Source of the DNA: Agroathelia rolfsii
Taxonomy: Eukaryota; Basidiomycota; Agaricomycetes; Amylocorticiales; Amylocorticiaceae
Direction of reading: 5' to 3'
Assembly (NCBI GenBank): GCA_018343915.1
Contig: JABRWF010000006.1
Location: forward strand, 3,658,001-3,722,000
Length of the DNA stretch: 64,000 bases
The position numbers and the translations under genes were made by a program. The notes below the pieces were generated by a model. That model had not been told where the DNA came from. It did no database searches and saw only the letters and a program-made list of their open reading frames with translations. This document shows positions 24,434-34,411 of the stretch, piece after piece (the first letter of the stretch is position 1; every line of letters starts with the position of its first letter).

Positions 24434-24438
24434 CTAGT
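24434..24438. repeat. Target-site duplication CTAGT, left copy (Gypsy-G)
   Basis: CTAGT precedes the left LTR and is repeated at 29031-29035 after the right LTR. Joining the flanks restores continuous gag sequence of the host element. Confidence 0.9.
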
Positions 24439-25039
24439 TGTCACGACCCCCTCCGCGCACAAGTGGCTCCCACTCCGACATTTCCGACATGTCCCCACTC
24501 ACCCTCGCCCACTACCATCCAACAACCAAAGGCACCTCTCCGGCTCCCAACTTCCGCTCTCCGCCCTCCGCGATTCGGGCGTCGGAACCAGCGACCCCTT
24601 GCTCGGCGCCCGACCGGGGTCCCGGAGTCTTTTCCTCTTCTCACGTATCCTGTTTTCCCATCATTTTCCCCACACGTTCTGGTACCCTTGTTCACATAGA
24701 TAGTTTCGGCTCATTCGCGCCCCGTATTCCGTTTCCCACTCTCCGTCTCACTTCATTTCTATTCCTCTTGGTATCCTCCTGTTACTATAGTATTTATACC
24801 GACCTAGCATGTACCTAGCTACCTCAGTTCGGAAATCGACTTAGTTCCCCTTCTCCTGTCTGACTCCTGTCCTGGACCGCAACTAGGCAAGGGCCTGACA
24901 CATACGTCTTGGCCAAGTCCGGTCACCCCTCTCCTTTCCTATCCACTCTCCCATCTCTACTCCTGTTCACTCCGTCTCCGCTTCCGTTCCGCTCCGCCCC
25001 TTCCCTTTTCTGCTATCTCCGTCCGTCCGAGACTTAACA
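24439..25039 (+). repeat. 5' LTR of Gypsy-G (601 bp)
   Basis: TGTCACGACC...GACTTAACA; matches 28430-29030 at nearly every base. Several ORFs read through it in all frames but are not genes. Confidence 0.92.
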
Positions 25040-25074
25040 GTATTTCCGAACTCCAACTTGTCTAGTTGCACCAC

Positions 25075-26358
25075 ATGACGAGCCGACCCCGTGACGCCAA
25101 TGGGCGTTTCCTACCATCTGATACCAACCAACTCTTCACAGGGTTTGAAGGAACGGCGGGAGCGTTTTCCGCCGCCCCCTTGGCCACCACCCCTCTTGAC
25201 TCCGTCTCCACGGCCGCCATGGGCCGTCGCTCTTCCCAAGGACAACCTGTCCCCGAAGAATACCTTGACGACTTCCAGGATGCCAACGATATCGACCAAC
25301 ATCTAAGGGACCTCGAAAATGAGAATGGTGAAAACCCCCTGGAGCACGCCCCTATTGCCCAATCAGCCCCTGGCCTCTCCCAAGACAACGCATTCTTTGA
25401 CCGCCTTATGCAAACCTTTGCCTCCGCTATTAACAACGCCCATGCAGCCCTGCCAGCTGGGTCAGAATCCCGTGGGTCAAAAATGCCATCCCCAGAAAAA
25501 TTTGATGGGGAACACCCAGAGAAACTCCGTACATTCCTCCTGCAGGGACAACTCCACTTCCGCGATCGTCCCCGCGATTTTCCAAATGACATAAAGAAGG
25601 TTACATTCATGATTGCCCATCTAGAGGGTACTGCCCTAGACTAGTTTGAACCCCACCTCAGCAATCCCATTCCAGGTTATGAACCCGCCTGGCTCAACTC
25701 CTACCCCGCCTTCCAGCAGGAGCTCCGCTTAAACTTCGGTCCGCTCCGCCCTGCAGAGGAGGCGGAAGCAGCTCTCGAGGCCCTGGTAATGAAGAGCGAC
25801 CAGCGCATCCAACTCTACATGGTACAGTTCAACCGCTGGGCAGCACTAGCTCAGTGGGGGGATCGCGCCCTTACCCGCCGCTTCTATGCTGGACTCCCAA
25901 ATCGACTTAAAGACGCGTTGTACAGCCTCCCCAGTGGAAAACCCAATACCCTCGCCGAACTCCGACTACAAGCTATGATGCTAGACGCTCGCTACTGGGA
26001 ACGTAAAGCGGAACTCGCCCAATCCCCGACAGTCCCTGGCAATACACCTAGCTCCGCTGGGATAAAAGTCACATCCCCTCGCACTTCCGCCTCCGCTACC
26101 GGGAGCAACTCCGCCCGCTCCTTCGCCAAGCCCGTTGCCTCACCATCGCCTATCCCACGGTCAATCCCCGGGATTGGCCCAGACGGAAAGCTCACAGCGG
26201 ATGAGCGCCAACGGAGAATTTTAAACAACCTCTGCCTCTTTTGTGGTATTGCAGGTCATGCAGTCAGGGACTGCCGTAAACGTGCCTCTGTCATGAATGC
26301 ACGCGCTGCAAGGGTCGATGAGGCAAGTGATGATGGATCCGAACAAGCAAAACAGTGA
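25075..26358 (+). pseudogene. Gag of Gypsy-G with one in-frame stop
   Basis: Capsid/nucleocapsid protein of the element. It starts at MTSRPRDANG and ends at a TGA at 26356-26358, 427 codons. A single TAG at 25642-25644 follows TALD, at a spot where Gag proteins usually carry Trp, so a TGG-to-TAG change is likely. The conserved retrotransposon-gag core covers about residues 130-290. A CCHC zinc knuckle, CLFCGIAGHAVRDC, lies near the C-terminus. Apart from the stop the frame is clean, and it is GC-rich with frequent tccgc, quite unlike the surrounding AT-rich host element. Confidence 0.85.
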
Positions 26359-27093
26359 GCAGCCCTCAAGACCCCGTACAGGTTGAGGGCTGCGCAATTC
26401 CACCACGTACCCCCGTTATCATGAATTTACAGGCTTCCACCATAGAGCCGTCAAACTCCCTTGTCCTTTCATGTACTTCACCCGGAACGAGACATCACCT
26501 CCGTCCGCGCCCTCGAGTTCGCAGTCGACCTGGATAGCCTCCACCAGGAGCTCCGCACCCAGCTCTCCGCCGCTCAGCGCCGATACCAGGCTCCGGCAGA
26601 CAAGAAACGCCTCCCGGCCCCCGACTTCAAAGTTGGCCAGCAAGTATTCGTCCGCGCGAAGTTTTTCCGCACCACTCGTCCGTCCAAGAAGCTTTCCGAC
26701 AAGTACCTAGGGCCCTACGAGATCATAGCACAAGCCGGGTTGTCCTCCTTTACTCTCCGCCTCCCCGATTCCATGCGCTCGGTGCACCCAGTCTTTCACG
26801 TTTCCCAGCTCGAGCCTGCTCCACCAAACACCATCCCGAATCGCACACAACCTCCGCCACCTCCGGTGGAAGTCGACGGAGAGGTGGAGTACGAGATCTC
26901 CGAAATCCTGGACTCCAAGATCGACAAGCGCCGCCGTTGCAAGTTGATGTACCGAGTGCGATGGGCGGGTTATGAAGGAACTCCGGACGAAGAAGACTGG
27001 CTACCCGCAACTGAACTCGCACATGCACAGGAGCTCGTCTCCGACTTCCACTCTCAATACCCCGTCAAGCCGGGCCCCCTGGACAAGATCTAA
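26359..27093 (+). pseudogene. Pol remnant of Gypsy-G: integrase C-terminus and chromodomain
   Basis: A short overlap frame after gag looks like the N-terminus of pol, then at about 26460 the sequence jumps straight to the integrase C-terminal domain. The open frame 26461-27093 has the GPY/F-like core (KYLGPYEII, HPVFHVSQLEP) followed by a chromodomain (VEYEISEILDSK, YRVRWAGYE, DWLPATEL). Chromodomains of this kind steer insertion to marked chromatin. The region between, about 3 kb in complete relatives, is deleted. It cannot supply catalysis. Confidence 0.85.
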
Positions 27094-27272
27094 TTCCCCT
27101 CTCCGCTCCTTCCGGCTCCGCACTTTTGCACCCTTTTTCTGATTTCCATTTCTTTTACTTTTATTCATTCCTGCTTTCCATATTCTTTTACTTCTTTTCA
27201 TTCCGACTTTCAAAAAAGAAAAATAAAATAAAACAAAAAGAAAAAAATTATTATCAACTACTGTACATATAA
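27094..27272. other. A-rich spacer between convergent reading frames of Gypsy-G
   Basis: Ends of the sense pol remnant and the antisense gene converge here. It has a purine/A-rich run at about 27209-27249, a plausible 3' end for both transcripts. Confidence 0.5.
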
Positions 27273-28262
27273 TTAATCTTCCCCGTCCTCCGACTCCTCG
27301 GTTAGGTCCTCCGCCGCTCCGCCCTCAGTCGCGTCAATCTCCGCTGCCGCCTCGTCGTCGTCCACTGCTGCACCCACTTCGTCCCTTTTCTCTACTGCGG
27401 GTGTGGCCGCGTGACCCCCCCTCCGCTCCTCCGCGTCGACCAACCTCTCTAGCAACTGCACCAACAGCCCGGAGCAGTTCTCCAGAACCCTCCGGCTGGC
27501 TACGGCCTCCCTCAACAAGGCCTGCTGGACGGAGACAAGCTCCGCCAATCCCGGGACCTCCGCCCGCCTGCGCGTCTGATGGCGACTACTCCCCTCCGCA
27601 GCCTCCGCCACCTCCGACACCTCTGCCCTCGCCTTTTCCTTGGTTCGCGTGCCCGTGGTCCGCGATGACGCGTCGTCGTCCATCTGGCACACCTTATGCC
27701 TTTCGCGGCACGGCTGGCATGACCGCCGCGACCCCTCCACGTACCACATGCACGTGACACCCCTCCTCCGACAGGTCTGACACGTCCGCCCCTGTACAAC
27801 AACATTAGTCGCAAGTCACCAAGGGGAGGAGTAACGTACCGGCACCTCCCTGACTGCAGTACCCGCAGCCTCCGTGACCCCAACTACCCGACGACGCTTG
27901 GCGGAAGACGCCTCTGGCACCTCTACATCGGACCCCTCCGACGCCCCCTGCAGTCGTCGAACGCGTTCCTCGCGCTTGCGCTCGTACTGCTCCCTAGCCT
28001 CCGCATGCGCGCGCTGCTGACGCTCCTCCCACTCGCGCATCTCCCTCTCCTCACGCTCGAGCCGCTCGCGCTCCTCCCGCTGGCGCTGCTCGCGTGCTTC
28101 CTGCTCGCGTCTCTCCCTCTCTTCGCGCTCCTTCCGCTCCATCTCCTCGCGCTCCTTCCTCTCGCGCTCCTCACGTTCGCGCTGTTCTTTCCGCTGCCTT
28201 GCAGCCGCCAGTTGGGCCTCCAGGACCGCGATATCGGCATCAAGCTCACGAGGGGAAGACAT
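27273..28262 (-). CDS. Antisense gene inside Gypsy-G: coiled coil plus Zn(II)2Cys6 cluster
   Basis: Two exons, 27840-28262 and 27273-27791, joined by a 48-bp GT-AG intron (gtacgt...tgtacag), give 313 residues. Residues 1-95 or so are an Arg/Glu-rich helix, very likely a coiled coil. Splicing brings a full cluster into frame: Cys145, 148, 155, 166, 169 and 176, spaced C-X2-C-X6-C-X10-C-X2-C-X6-C, the rule for fungal binuclear zinc DNA-binding domains. A Lys-Arg patch (AKRRRVVGV) precedes it and could be a nuclear signal. The C-terminal 90 residues are acidic. I infer a DNA-binding regulator carried by the element; the usual middle-homology region is absent. It starts 168 bp from the 3' LTR, so that LTR may drive it in reverse. 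I do not recognise a named gene. Confidence 0.72.
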
Positions 28263-28416
28263 TGGCAAGCGAAGCTAGTAGGTGGTGGTAGTGGTGGTGT
28301 GGTAACAAGAGTTGGTTGTTGATGACCCTGCGCACGCGCGCAAATATGGACCCACACGAACTATTTTCGTACTCCGACACTAATACAGCCACTAGTCCTT
28401 CAAGGGCTCAGGACCT
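28263..28416. other. Region between antisense gene start and 3' LTR of Gypsy-G
   Basis: Short stretch with no sense ORF. It should hold the 5' leader of the antisense gene. Confidence 0.4.
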
Positions 28417-28429
28417 AAAGGGGGGACAC
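28417..28429 (+). promoter_or_regulatory. Polypurine tract of Gypsy-G
   Basis: The run aaaggggggaca directly abuts the 3' LTR, the standard place for plus-strand DNA priming. Confidence 0.75.
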
Positions 28430-29030
28430 TGTCACGACCCCCTCCGCGCACAAGTGGCTCCCACTCCGACATTTCCGACATGTCCCCACTCACCCTCGCC
28501 CACTACCATCCAACAACCAAAGGCACCTCTCCGGCTCCCAACTTCCGCTCTCCGCCCTCCGCGATTCGGGCGTCGGAACCAGCGACCCCTTGCTCGGCGC
28601 CCGACCGGGGTCCCGGAGTCTTTTCCTCTTCTCACGTATCCTGTTTTCCCATCATTTTCCCCACACGTTCTGGTACCCTTGTTCACATAGATAGTTTCGG
28701 CTCATTCGCGCCCCGTATTCCGTTTCCCACTCTCCGTCTCACTTCATTTCTATTCCTCTTGGTATCCTCCTGTTACTATAGTATTTATACCGACCTAGCA
28801 TGTACCTAGCTACCTCAGTTCGGAAATCGACTTAGTTCCCCTTCTCCTGTCTGACTCCTGTCCCGGACCGCAACTAGGCAAGGGCCTGACACATACGTCT
28901 TGGCCAAGTCCGGTCACCCCTCTCCTTTCCTATCCACTCTCCCATCTCTACTCCTGTTCACTCCGTCTCCGCTTCCGTTCCGCTCCGCCCCTTCCCTTTT
29001 CTGCTATCTCCGTCCGTCCGAGACTTAACA
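28430..29030 (+). repeat. 3' LTR of Gypsy-G (601 bp)
   Basis: Second LTR, same length and ends as 24439-25039, followed by the CTAGT duplication. Confidence 0.92.
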
Positions 29031-29035
29031 CTAGT

Positions 29036-32340: not shown

Positions 32341-34411
32341 ATACCAGGAAGGTATAGAAAAGGTGTGGTAGGAGCTTATTGAGTACTGTAAACCCCTATG
32401 TGCTAAAGCGGAGGAAACCAAACTTCCTCTATTGCACAACATTAACCATATCATCCCACTGATTGATAAAAAGGCTATTTACCCTTGAAGGCCATTATGC
32501 TGCCCTGATGCATTTTGTGCTTAGTGGAATACTAAGCATAATGTTTACTTAAGATCTGGTCATTGGAAAGTCATGACCTTGGGCAATACTGTGTCTATGT
32601 TATTCATTTCCAAGCCTCACAAGAAGGGAGAACCCACAAGACTGCAAACAGTTGTAGACTTACGGACTAGAAATGCCAACACTCATAAATTGAGTGCACT
32701 ATTGCTAGATATAGAGGGCATATTTGTTAAGTCTCAAACGGACAGAGATAGCAGAAAAGGGAAGGGGCGGAGCAGAACAGAAGCGGAGACGGAGTGAACA
32801 GGAGTAGAGATGGGAGAGTGGATAGGAAAGGAGAGGGGTGACCAGACTTGGCCAAGACGTATATGTCAGGCCTTTGCCTAGTTGCGGTCCGGGACAGGAG
32901 TTAGACAGGAGAAGGGGAACTAAGTTGATTTCCAAACTGAGGTAGCTAGGTATATGCTAGGTCAGTATAAATACTATAGTAGCAGGAGGATACTAAGAGG
33001 AATAGAAATGAAGTGAGATAGAGAGTGGAAAACGGAATATGGGGCACGAATGGGCCAAAACTATCTATGTGAACAAGGATACCAGAACGTGTGGGGAAAA
33101 TAATGGGAAAACAGGATACGTGAGAAGAGGAAAAGACTCCAGGACTCCAGTTGGGCGTCGAGCAAGGGGTCGCTGGTTTCGACGCCTGAATTGTGGAGGG
33201 CGGAGAGTAGAAGTTGGGAGCTGGAGAGGTGTCTTTGGTTGTTGGATGGTAGTGGGCAAGGGTGAGTGGGGATATGTCGGAAATATTGGAGTGGGAGCCA
33301 CTTGTGCGTGGAGGGGGTCGTGACAATATTACAAAGGGCATCATGCACCTGCTATAGATCAATAATCAATGGGCAAGATGCTTATGAGTAAATCCGGATA
33401 ATTCCAGAACATGTAGATTGCTTGGCTATGATGACTCTAGATGGGAATATAGTTAGCTTAGTCATTCAGCAGGGTGACTGCAATGCACCTGCTACTTATC
33501 AAGTGTTGATGAATCACATATTTGGCCCTTACATTAGCAAATTTATTGCAGTGTATTTAGACAATATAATTATATATTCTAATACACTTGTAAAGTATAT
33601 TGAGCATGTTAAAATTATAATTGATATATTGAAGAGGGAATGGCTTTATTTGAGCCGTAATAAATTACATTTCTTAGAACCTAAATTAAGAATACTGGAT
33701 TATATTATTGACAATAATGGTATTAAAATAGATCCATATAAGGTGGATGCCATTGAAAAATGAAAAGTCCCAACTAACAGGGACTTATTGAGGGGCTTCT
33801 TAGGCTCAGTAGTATTTCTGGCTGGTAACCTAGCAAATGTTGTGTATAATATGGCAACGCTTAGTAAGCTGACCAATGATGCATCAGTATTTTACTAGGG
33901 TGCCACTGAGCAAAGAGCCTTTGAAAGTATTAAGTTTACAGTTGGGGTAATATGCGAACATTATTGCCAGCCTCTTGATTACTCCACAGAGGCATTGCCT
34001 ATTTAGGTTGCTATAGATGCCAGTGCAAAGGGCGTATCTAGCATGGTTTCCCAAGGTGCCAACTAGAAAACAGCTACAGTGGCTGCCTTTTTCTCTGCAA
34101 AAATAACATCTGCATAGGAAAATTATCCTGTGTATGAGCAAGAGCTTTTAGCTGGAGTCAAGACAATGTGGTGGTACTACGATATCTTGCGTGGTGTATT
34201 TTTTATATGGATCACAGACTATAAGGGTCTAATACATTTATTCACTCAATCAGACTTGTTAGGCTGACAGGCTAGGTAGATGGAAAAATTGAGTGAATTT
34301 AATTTTGAAATAAAATACATTCCAGGCAAGGAAAATATCTTTTTGGATGCCCTATCAAGAATATATACGGCAGATATACTGGATATGGTGTGTCACGCCT
34401 CAGAATATACC
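32341..34411 (+). pseudogene. Decayed reverse transcriptase and RNase H of Gypsy-O
   Basis: Host pol resumes at 32341 and reads as reverse transcriptase (RLQTVVDLRTRN). It is interrupted by a solo LTR-G and resumes at 33331 (DGNIVSLVIQQGDCNAPATY, then YLDN, then NKLHFL). The catalytic YLDD has become YLDN at 33554-33565. RNase H follows (ITDYKGLIHLF). Many stops sit where Trp, Gln or Arg is usual, for example TAG at 33896 and 34064. The enzyme is inactive. Confidence 0.82.
32725..33325 (-). mobile_element. Solo LTR of the Gypsy-G family, reverse orientation (601 bp)
   Basis: The reverse complement aligns base for base with the Gypsy-G LTRs at the same length. ATATT flanks it on both sides. 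It differs from them by many transitions, so it is an older insertion. It splits the reverse transcriptase remnant of Gypsy-O. Confidence 0.9.

Follow-up and report, generated by a model that had tools for sequence, protein, structure and literature searches.

Why would a Gypsy retrotransposon carry, on the strand opposite to its own genes, a spliced gene whose product has the cysteine spacing of a fungal transcription factor? In LTR retrotransposons, antisense accessory genes have long been on record as genes with unknown functions (PMC7264820). The case considered here lies in a 64,000-nucleotide stretch of the Agroathelia rolfsii genome, which was analysed as a whole and is called the window below. 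A first-pass annotation had placed the gene between the chromodomain and the 3' LTR of a young Gypsy element and had proposed that it might regulate LTR activity, help copies that lack pol or act on host genes. We followed up these proposals computationally, asking what the element and the gene are, how the gene is maintained among copies, and what its product could recognise.

The element and its antisense gene

The host element (24439-29030) is bordered by CTAGT, a target duplication of 5 bp (24434-24438 and 29031-29035), and its description as young is borne out by an LTR pair that mismatches at one of 601 positions (Table 1). A sister copy of 7654 bp with identical LTRs (C6:3220462-3228115) provides the reference for the interior. 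Compared with it, the window copy has lost most of pol through the deletion of about 3.06 kb, and its gag frame contains a stop at codon 193. Since most of pol is deleted and gag is interrupted, the window copy was probably copied with proteins supplied from elsewhere; its antisense gene is open despite both lesions. What is left of pol scores 64.8 bits for Pfam SH3_Tf2-1 and 33.1 bits for Chromo, both above cut-off. In the sister copy the long pol frame is split by one stop, and reverse transcriptase (RT) is found above the Pfam cut-off at C6:3224664-3225146. The integrase side comes from a metagenome relative, a pol protein 79% identical to that of the sister copy for which PF17921 is listed. 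Together with Gag, RT, the chromodomain, the LTRs, the target duplication and the polypurine tract, this makes the element a chromodomain Gypsy element (chromovirus). Among the 120 matches listed for the sister-copy pol, named fungi include Trametes, Armillaria and Pleurotus, in keeping with a basidiomycete genome, and two higher-ranked rows are frog records. The window also holds an LTR of the same family on the opposite strand (32725-33325, minus), 93% alike and 3.7 kb from the element, for which no partner LTR of its own was found among the matches listed.

Table 1. Features of the Gypsy element and its antisense gene, in window positions
Feature	Position	Strand	Basis or remark
CTCCG array (CGGAG on the other strand), nearly one orientation, in LTRs and interior	24439-29030	+	Window counts
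5' LTR	24439-25039	+	601-bp direct repeat; 1 difference from 3' LTR
gag, 431 codons including stop	25066-26358	+	Pfam Retrotrans_gag, 27.1 bits (cut-off 24.1), second piece
3' remnant of pol, SH3-like (Tf2-1) and chromodomain	26446-27093	+	Open frame crosses the deletion junction
Deletion junction, about 3.06 kb internal, 5-bp overlap	26477-26481	+	Aligned with C6:3220462-3228115
Exon 2, 172 codons and stop: Cys6 domain, helical region, acidic tail	27273-27791	-	Homologous exon in family B
Acidic C-terminal tail, residues 265-313	27276-27422	-	37% D/E, 6% K/R; low pLDDT
Long C-terminal helix, residues 223-264	27423-27548	-	Block pLDDT 90-98, both models
Cys6 domain, residues 145-176	27687-27782	-	Spacing and structure matches
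Intron, 48 nt	27792-27839	-	Begins GTACGT, contains CTAAT, ends ACAG
Exon 1, 141 codons: N-terminal stretch, charged Glu/Arg helix, basic patch	27840-28262	-	Translation
KRRR basic patch, residues 122-125, possible nuclear localisation signal	27888-27899	-	K122 to R124 invariant
Presumed 5' leader of the antisense gene, 167 bp	28263-28429	-	Sequence; promoter position inferred
Purine-rich tract adjoining the 3' LTR (polypurine tract by eye)	28417-28429	+	Sequence
3' LTR	28430-29030	+	CTCCG: 10 on + strand, 11 on both strands combined

The two exons and the short intron were confirmed exactly as annotated, and the spliced product is 313 amino acids long. Its gene starts 167 bp away from the 3' LTR, in agreement with the earlier figure of about 170 bp, and the window copy, L009, L010 and L015 all have an open exon 2. 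The basic patch before the cysteines and the acidic tail after them are both present, and K122, R123 and R124 of the patch are invariant in a three-sequence alignment. One element of the original description does not hold, namely the long coiled coil. Residues 22-103 consist to 77% of E, R or K and to 6% of L, I, V, M, F or W, and their i/i+4 charge pairs are of opposite sign in 45 cases and of the same sign in 3; because of these pairings and the scarcity of hydrophobic residues, the segment is better read as a charged single Glu/Arg helix. After the cysteines, the best conserved stretch is the predicted helix at residues 223-264, possibly an oligomerisation helix.

The reported cysteine spacing, C-X2-C-X6-C-X10-C-X2-C-X6-C, is exact (cysteines 145, 148, 155, 166, 169 and 176), with a seventh cysteine at 247 outside the domain. 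A six-frame scan of the window that allowed a central spacer of 5-14 found this pattern at a single place, the antisense gene, and none of 20 dinucleotide-shuffled windows contained it. Zn2Cys6 domains are spaced C-X2-C-X6-C-X(5-12)-C-X2-C-X(6-8)-C, and the antisense protein falls within this range (PF00172). The claim of a fungal-type transcription factor domain thus stands as far as the spacing is concerned, but not by the Pfam Zn_clus model, a test that the first-pass annotation had itself named: at a cut-off of 21 bits, exon 2 scored 13.1, the spliced protein 11.4 and the family-B protein 12.4. The weak match is moreover out of register, the first half of the domain being aligned to the second half of the profile, and on account of both the score and the register we call the domain Zn2Cys6-like rather than a member of Zn_clus.

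Structure comparison pointed, if weakly, in the same direction as the spacing. When two predicted models were searched against the PDB with Foldseek, the best 5 of 13 matches and the best 9 of 14 were Zn2Cys6 DNA-binding domains, all of them weak (E 0.08 at best). VIA-align superposed the two models on PPR1 with an rmsd of 1.9 and 1.6 Å over 38 residues and with low scores; for one model the three top rows by Z (up to 5.2) were unrelated proteins aligned on the long helix. A Foldseek search against viral models gave no match under E 0.7, a PDB sequence search with the antisense protein returned nothing relevant, and neither a protein search with the full-length protein as query nor a search of viral contigs with one query protein gave any matches.

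Copies, selection and decay

The genome searched comprises 37.7 Mb in 8 contigs. A DNA search with the antisense gene gave 13 matches at 11 places, and in the window and the ten other loci its orientation relative to the 3' end of pol and the 3' LTR is constant wherever these are visible. An independent starting point, the 3' end of pol (18 matches, with 17 of 17 candidates scored), led to 11 places of the window element's family (family A) and five of a second family (family B). The gene adjoins all 11 family-A chromodomain places in the same orientation. The same count leads us to reject a gene confined to copies without pol, since every family-A chromodomain found has the gene alongside. 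The suggested role on pol-less copies accordingly survives only in a broader form: pol-bearing copies have the gene too, and what is plausible is a role on the element itself.

In family B, protein searches found the gene at four places (on contigs C4, C8, C4 and C7); the chromodomain on C7 lies about 9.5 kb from its gene, and the two were counted as one interrupted element. The gene of copy B1 occupies the same place and strand as in family A, its intron lies at the same position (GTAAGT...TGTAG), and its exon 2 is 37-38% identical to that of the window copy. At the fifth family-B place, L051 (C1:423900-427700), whose LTR pieces have diverged by 4.5% across 247 bp, the whole antisense gene has been cleanly lost between two 8-bp direct repeats (GGGAGAGA), so that its absence looks derived. 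Three further places with paired LTRs of the same family (L048-L050) showed no Gypsy interior in the stretches read near their ends; they come from a small sample, an LTR search with 48 matches listed and 40 of 136 candidates scored. DNA and protein searches of this genome found no homologue beyond families A and B, and hence no sign of a parent gene in the host. In metagenomes, four proteins show homology to the post-cysteine part (E 2.1e-28 to 5.5e-25); they keep the helix at residues 223-264, and their listed starts lie downstream of the Cys domain. We conclude that this lineage of chromodomain Gypsy elements carries the antisense gene as a standing accessory, placed between pol and the 3' LTR.

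The contigs themselves look like two homeologous sets, C1/C4/C7/C8 and C2/C3/C5/C6, and among 34 rows of Zn_clus genes we counted, by reading, 9 near-equal-scoring pairs across the two. Among the matches listed, family A lies on C2/C3/C5/C6 with one copy on C7, and family B lies on C1/C4/C7/C8, as does a third LTR family that is described below. Is this a hybrid or a two-nucleus assembly?

Several comparisons bear on whether the reading frames are maintained. Between the window copy and L015, dS is 0.62 and dN 0.15 (ratio 0.25); against B1 the ratio is 0.39 at a dS of 1.65, which is near saturation, and against L009 it is 0.94 from 8 base differences (2 synonymous, 6 not), too few to judge. 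By codon position (1/2/3), window and L015 differ at 9.8/13.5/26.3% of sites in exon 1 and 15.0/20.8/34.7% in exon 2, while 14 of the 48 intron sites differ, evenly spread and at a level like that of third codon positions. This codon-position pattern and the even divergence of the intron therefore support both the reading frames and the intron. The splice signals GT, CTAAT and AG are likewise kept in all nine readable family-A copies, a count in which L016 was set aside and to which L018, without the region, does not contribute. Purifying selection and conservation in two families lead us to reject a chance open reading frame, and from the sequence comparisons we regard it as almost certain that this is a real gene under selection.

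The cysteines have fared less well. All six are present in two of the nine readable family-A copies (the window and L009) and L015 lacks one; in family B they are intact in three of four copies (B1, B2 and B4), B3 lacking the last. Scrambled cysteines together with dN/dS near 1 had been named in advance as an outcome that would speak against a functional gene: cysteines are indeed lost in most family-A copies, but selection is still seen in the codon positions and the intron. The losses do not overturn it because they occur in copies that are strongly C-to-T decayed or, in L015, amount to a single cysteine. Such decay, mostly at CpG, marks the older family-A copies L010-L014 and L018. In L014, 209 of 220 differences are C>T or G>A, 149 of these at CpG; L015 is less one-sided, with 107 of 202. 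We take C-to-T decay at CpG to be the likely mark of methylated, silenced copies.

A word array in LTRs and coding sequence

If the protein does bind DNA, what could it read? The most enriched 5-letter word on the Gypsy strand is the same in families A and B, namely CTCCG. Detailed counts were taken on the sister copy and on B1, with expectations from dinucleotide shuffles. Without its 3' LTR, the sister copy has 94 CTCCG on the Gypsy strand vs 18.0 expected (z 17.7), whereas the opposite word, CGGAG, occurs 7 times vs 6.1; in B1 the figures are 91 vs 20.5 (z 15.0) and 8 vs 6.2. The excess extends over all main parts of the element. In the sister copy, observed and expected counts are 10/2.1 in each LTR, 9/2.3 in gag, 57/9.5 in pol and 15/5.7 in the antisense gene, where the words keep their Gypsy-strand orientation; in family B they are 11/1.6 in the 3' LTR, 56/11.8 in gag-pol and 12/5.3 in the antisense gene. 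With about one word per 75-80 bp and median gaps of 40 and 38 bp, the array is dispersed and includes coding sequence. Around TCCG there is little base preference except for the preceding C.

Codon usage could in principle generate such a pattern, and for pol this explanation was rejected. The words of the family-A pol fall almost evenly on the three frames (17, 19 and 21), and in shuffles that preserve the codons CTCCG remains in excess in pol (z 7.5 and 6.8 for A, 7.9 for B), compared with z of at most 0.2 in four control pols (L055 left out). In gag the same treatment leaves a weak or absent excess (A, 9 vs 5.3, z 2.1; a B frame, z 1.4). Window exon 1 has 3 words vs 1.4, and exon 2 has 13 vs 6.7 (z 3.5), with 2 vs 0.3 for the opposite word; the B antisense exons gave no significant excess (4 vs 3.7 and 8 vs 7.0; z 0.2 and 0.6). 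The words also persist between families: in an A/B pol alignment of 3219 columns (77.6% identical), 26 of the 49 CTCCG words of A are CTCCG in B too, vs 43 of 154 for 19 composition-matched words (Fisher p 0.0018).

Outside the element, 20 kb of the window contain CTCCG at chance level (27 vs 24.9, both strands). Five other RT-bearing elements, Gypsy-like by eye, contain 2, 3, 2, 1 and 4 words vs 0.5, 1.8, 1.2, 3.0 and 3.4 expected, and the stretches read of them held no Cys6 pattern with matching spacing. These controls were hand-picked for long open frames from an RT list (150 rows of 358 candidates) and are not random; 4.5-5 kb of each was read, their GC content is 0.39-0.46 vs about 0.57, and they may be related to one another. 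Being absent from all five of the others read, the array was rejected as a general feature of RT elements.

The link between the gene and the array also has its limits. The genome contains 457 instances of three CTCCG within 25-base gaps, vs 177 for the reversed pattern, and the first places listed, all on C1, include many outside recognised A and B copies. One of them led to the third LTR family, represented by C1:662949-663909 and its kin: in L058 (1141-2118, C1:662940-663917), an insertion of about 978 bp that interrupts the pol frame of another RT element is LTR-like by copy number (568 candidates), shows no clear target duplication at its ends, and carries 10 CGGAG and 4 CTCCG vs about 0.9 and 0.7 expected (one copy, both strands). 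Protein searches found no homologue of the antisense gene outside families A and B, this third family included. The array is therefore not confined to families in which the gene can be detected; in the third family the protein may be used in trans, the gene may be too diverged to recognise, or a host factor may read the word. Word enrichment alone is not unique either, because control elements have enriched words too. Gypsy-like control L053 (C6:340600-345600) has strand-biased words (CACAG, 31 vs 7.4, z 8.3; CATAG, 28 vs 9.0), and another control pol has a mild CGGAG excess (7 vs 3.2, z 2.5). Element-specific word arrays may thus be more general.

Possible roles and known systems

We give an even chance to the reading that the antisense protein is a DNA-binding regulator of its own element, a reading based on sequence and predicted models, in which the binding itself is inferred. 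Transcription would start from an antisense promoter in the 167-bp interval adjoining the 3' LTR, or in the LTR itself, and yield a spliced mRNA. The protein would enter the nucleus and form dimers or higher forms through its long helix, and its Cys6 domain, if it binds zinc as its predicted fold suggests, would read the CGGAG/CTCCG words. Zn2Cys6 proteins typically recognise CGG triplets, and the sites of Pho7 are described as containing a single one (PMC5559640). Selectivity for its own family could come from the density and single orientation of the array, as for VANC21, an anti-silencing protein described as binding motifs that are densely arrayed, in one orientation, in the transposon that encodes it (PMC5735166). 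Acting in trans on its family, the antisense protein would most likely raise transcription or keep off CpG methylation, and it could also repress. Copies without pol could remain in this circuit because they retain gene and array. That the effect is anti-silencing rather than plain activation or repression is a tentative suggestion, with a modest chance of being right. Equally tentative is the full picture, a fungal system of LTR-retrotransposon self-recognition in which an antisense Zn2Cys6-like protein and a one-orientation CGGAG array, placed in the LTRs and, by constrained codon choice, in pol, open the element's own copies against CpG methylation; it would be a retrotransposon parallel to VANC, retained in each half of the genome.

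Other explanations account for part of these observations. The product could be a real nuclear protein that serves a different step, for example importing the pre-integration complex, tethering to chromatin or choosing the integration site, the array being unrelated. A basic patch and long helices would suit many nuclear roles, the antisense protein of Grande is described as nuclear with no known role (PMC7264820), and in the third LTR family the words occur although no gene could be detected. We nevertheless think this rather unlikely, given that both gene-bearing families, although found for the most part in different genome halves, have in common a word that the five other elements read lack, and that CGG is the half-site expected for the predicted fold. 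Alternatively, the protein could resemble HBZ in being a negative or balancing regulator, one that keeps the element tolerable by repressing LTR-driven sense transcription or by acting on host genes. Its layout is like that of HTLV-type antisense genes, a comparison also made for Retand (PMC11963269), and an acidic tail could serve either direction; a repressor would, however, seem to gain little from an array that covers the whole element including its coding sequence, which makes this reading distinctly unlikely in our view.

An array that acts at the RNA level, in packaging by Gag or in the stability of the sense RNA, would fit the strong strand bias (94 vs 7) and the coverage of the whole element, hence of the genomic RNA, and would leave the antisense transcript or protein as a separate regulator. 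Yet a single orientation is also possible for DNA motifs read by a transposon-encoded protein, as VANC21 shows, and the bases around TCCG show little preference beyond the preceding C; we hold this explanation to be quite improbable. As a last alternative, the gene could be a passenger, acquired by the element in a single capture of a host transcription-factor gene and now in decay, its cysteine spacing a relic; this could explain the stops or lost cysteines of many copies and the family-B copy without the gene. Purifying selection between lineages, an intron and a position conserved in two families, the relatives in metagenomes, and the failure to find a host homologue in this genome all speak against it and leave it only a slight residual probability.

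How does the preferred reading, a regulator of its own element, compare with systems already described? Zhao et al. reportedly described in 2011 Boty-like Gypsy retrotransposons of Botrytis with an antisense gene, brtn. Later accounts list brtn among antisense ORFs between pol and the 3' LTR (PMC7264820), and the likeness extends to a fungal chromodomain Gypsy-type element with an extra antisense gene (PMC8365987, PMC4227169), whereas Botrytis as a host is an ascomycete. In the plant elements Retand, Grande and RIRE2, an antisense accessory gene between pol and the 3' LTR is described as conserved in most copies, with possible DNA binding and, in Grande, a nuclear protein (PMC7264820, PMC11963269). 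Retand differs in its domain (TRP28) and in a pol-to-LTR region of 2.9-6.6 kb vs about 1.3 kb here (PMC11963269); it is described as a non-chromovirus, in contrast to the chromodomain Gypsy element studied here, and the descriptions used for Retand, Grande and RIRE2 do not mention an array of an own motif. With HTLV-type genes such as HBZ the likeness is one of layout only, an antisense gene for what is there a nuclear protein and here would be one (PMC11963269); elements and hosts are different, and no relation between the proteins is claimed.

Antisense accessory genes are therefore already known, but the content of this one and its array look new: in the open-licence literature we found no Zn2Cys6-type antisense gene in a retrotransposon, with the proviso that brtn was compared through citing descriptions and could be a homologue. 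The antisense protein shares with Zn2Cys6 factors (Gal4, Ppr1, Put3, Leu3, Hap1, Pho7) the cysteine spacing, the predicted fold, a downstream helix that could dimerise and a candidate target containing CGG; it differs in being missed by the Pfam model, in the long charged N-terminal helix that precedes its domain and in lying antisense in a retrotransposon. With a recognisable Zn2Cys6-like domain and a candidate target throughout the element, the role of such an accessory gene becomes directly testable.

The closest parallel in logic is VANC, with no similarity between the proteins being claimed. As far as the VANC description used goes, both systems would combine a transposon-encoded protein with a short motif that stands in one orientation and at high density in its own family. 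The VANC-bearing VANDAL elements of Arabidopsis are Mutator-like DNA transposons, not LTR retrotransposons. The VANC motif is described as lying mainly in noncoding sequence and in tandem repeats, whereas the CTCCG words are dispersed and occur in coding sequence too, which is why we say that the antisense system would work like VANC, not that it is VANC. If the protein does bind these words and open its own copies, a fungal retroelement would have evolved sequence-specific anti-silencing independently.
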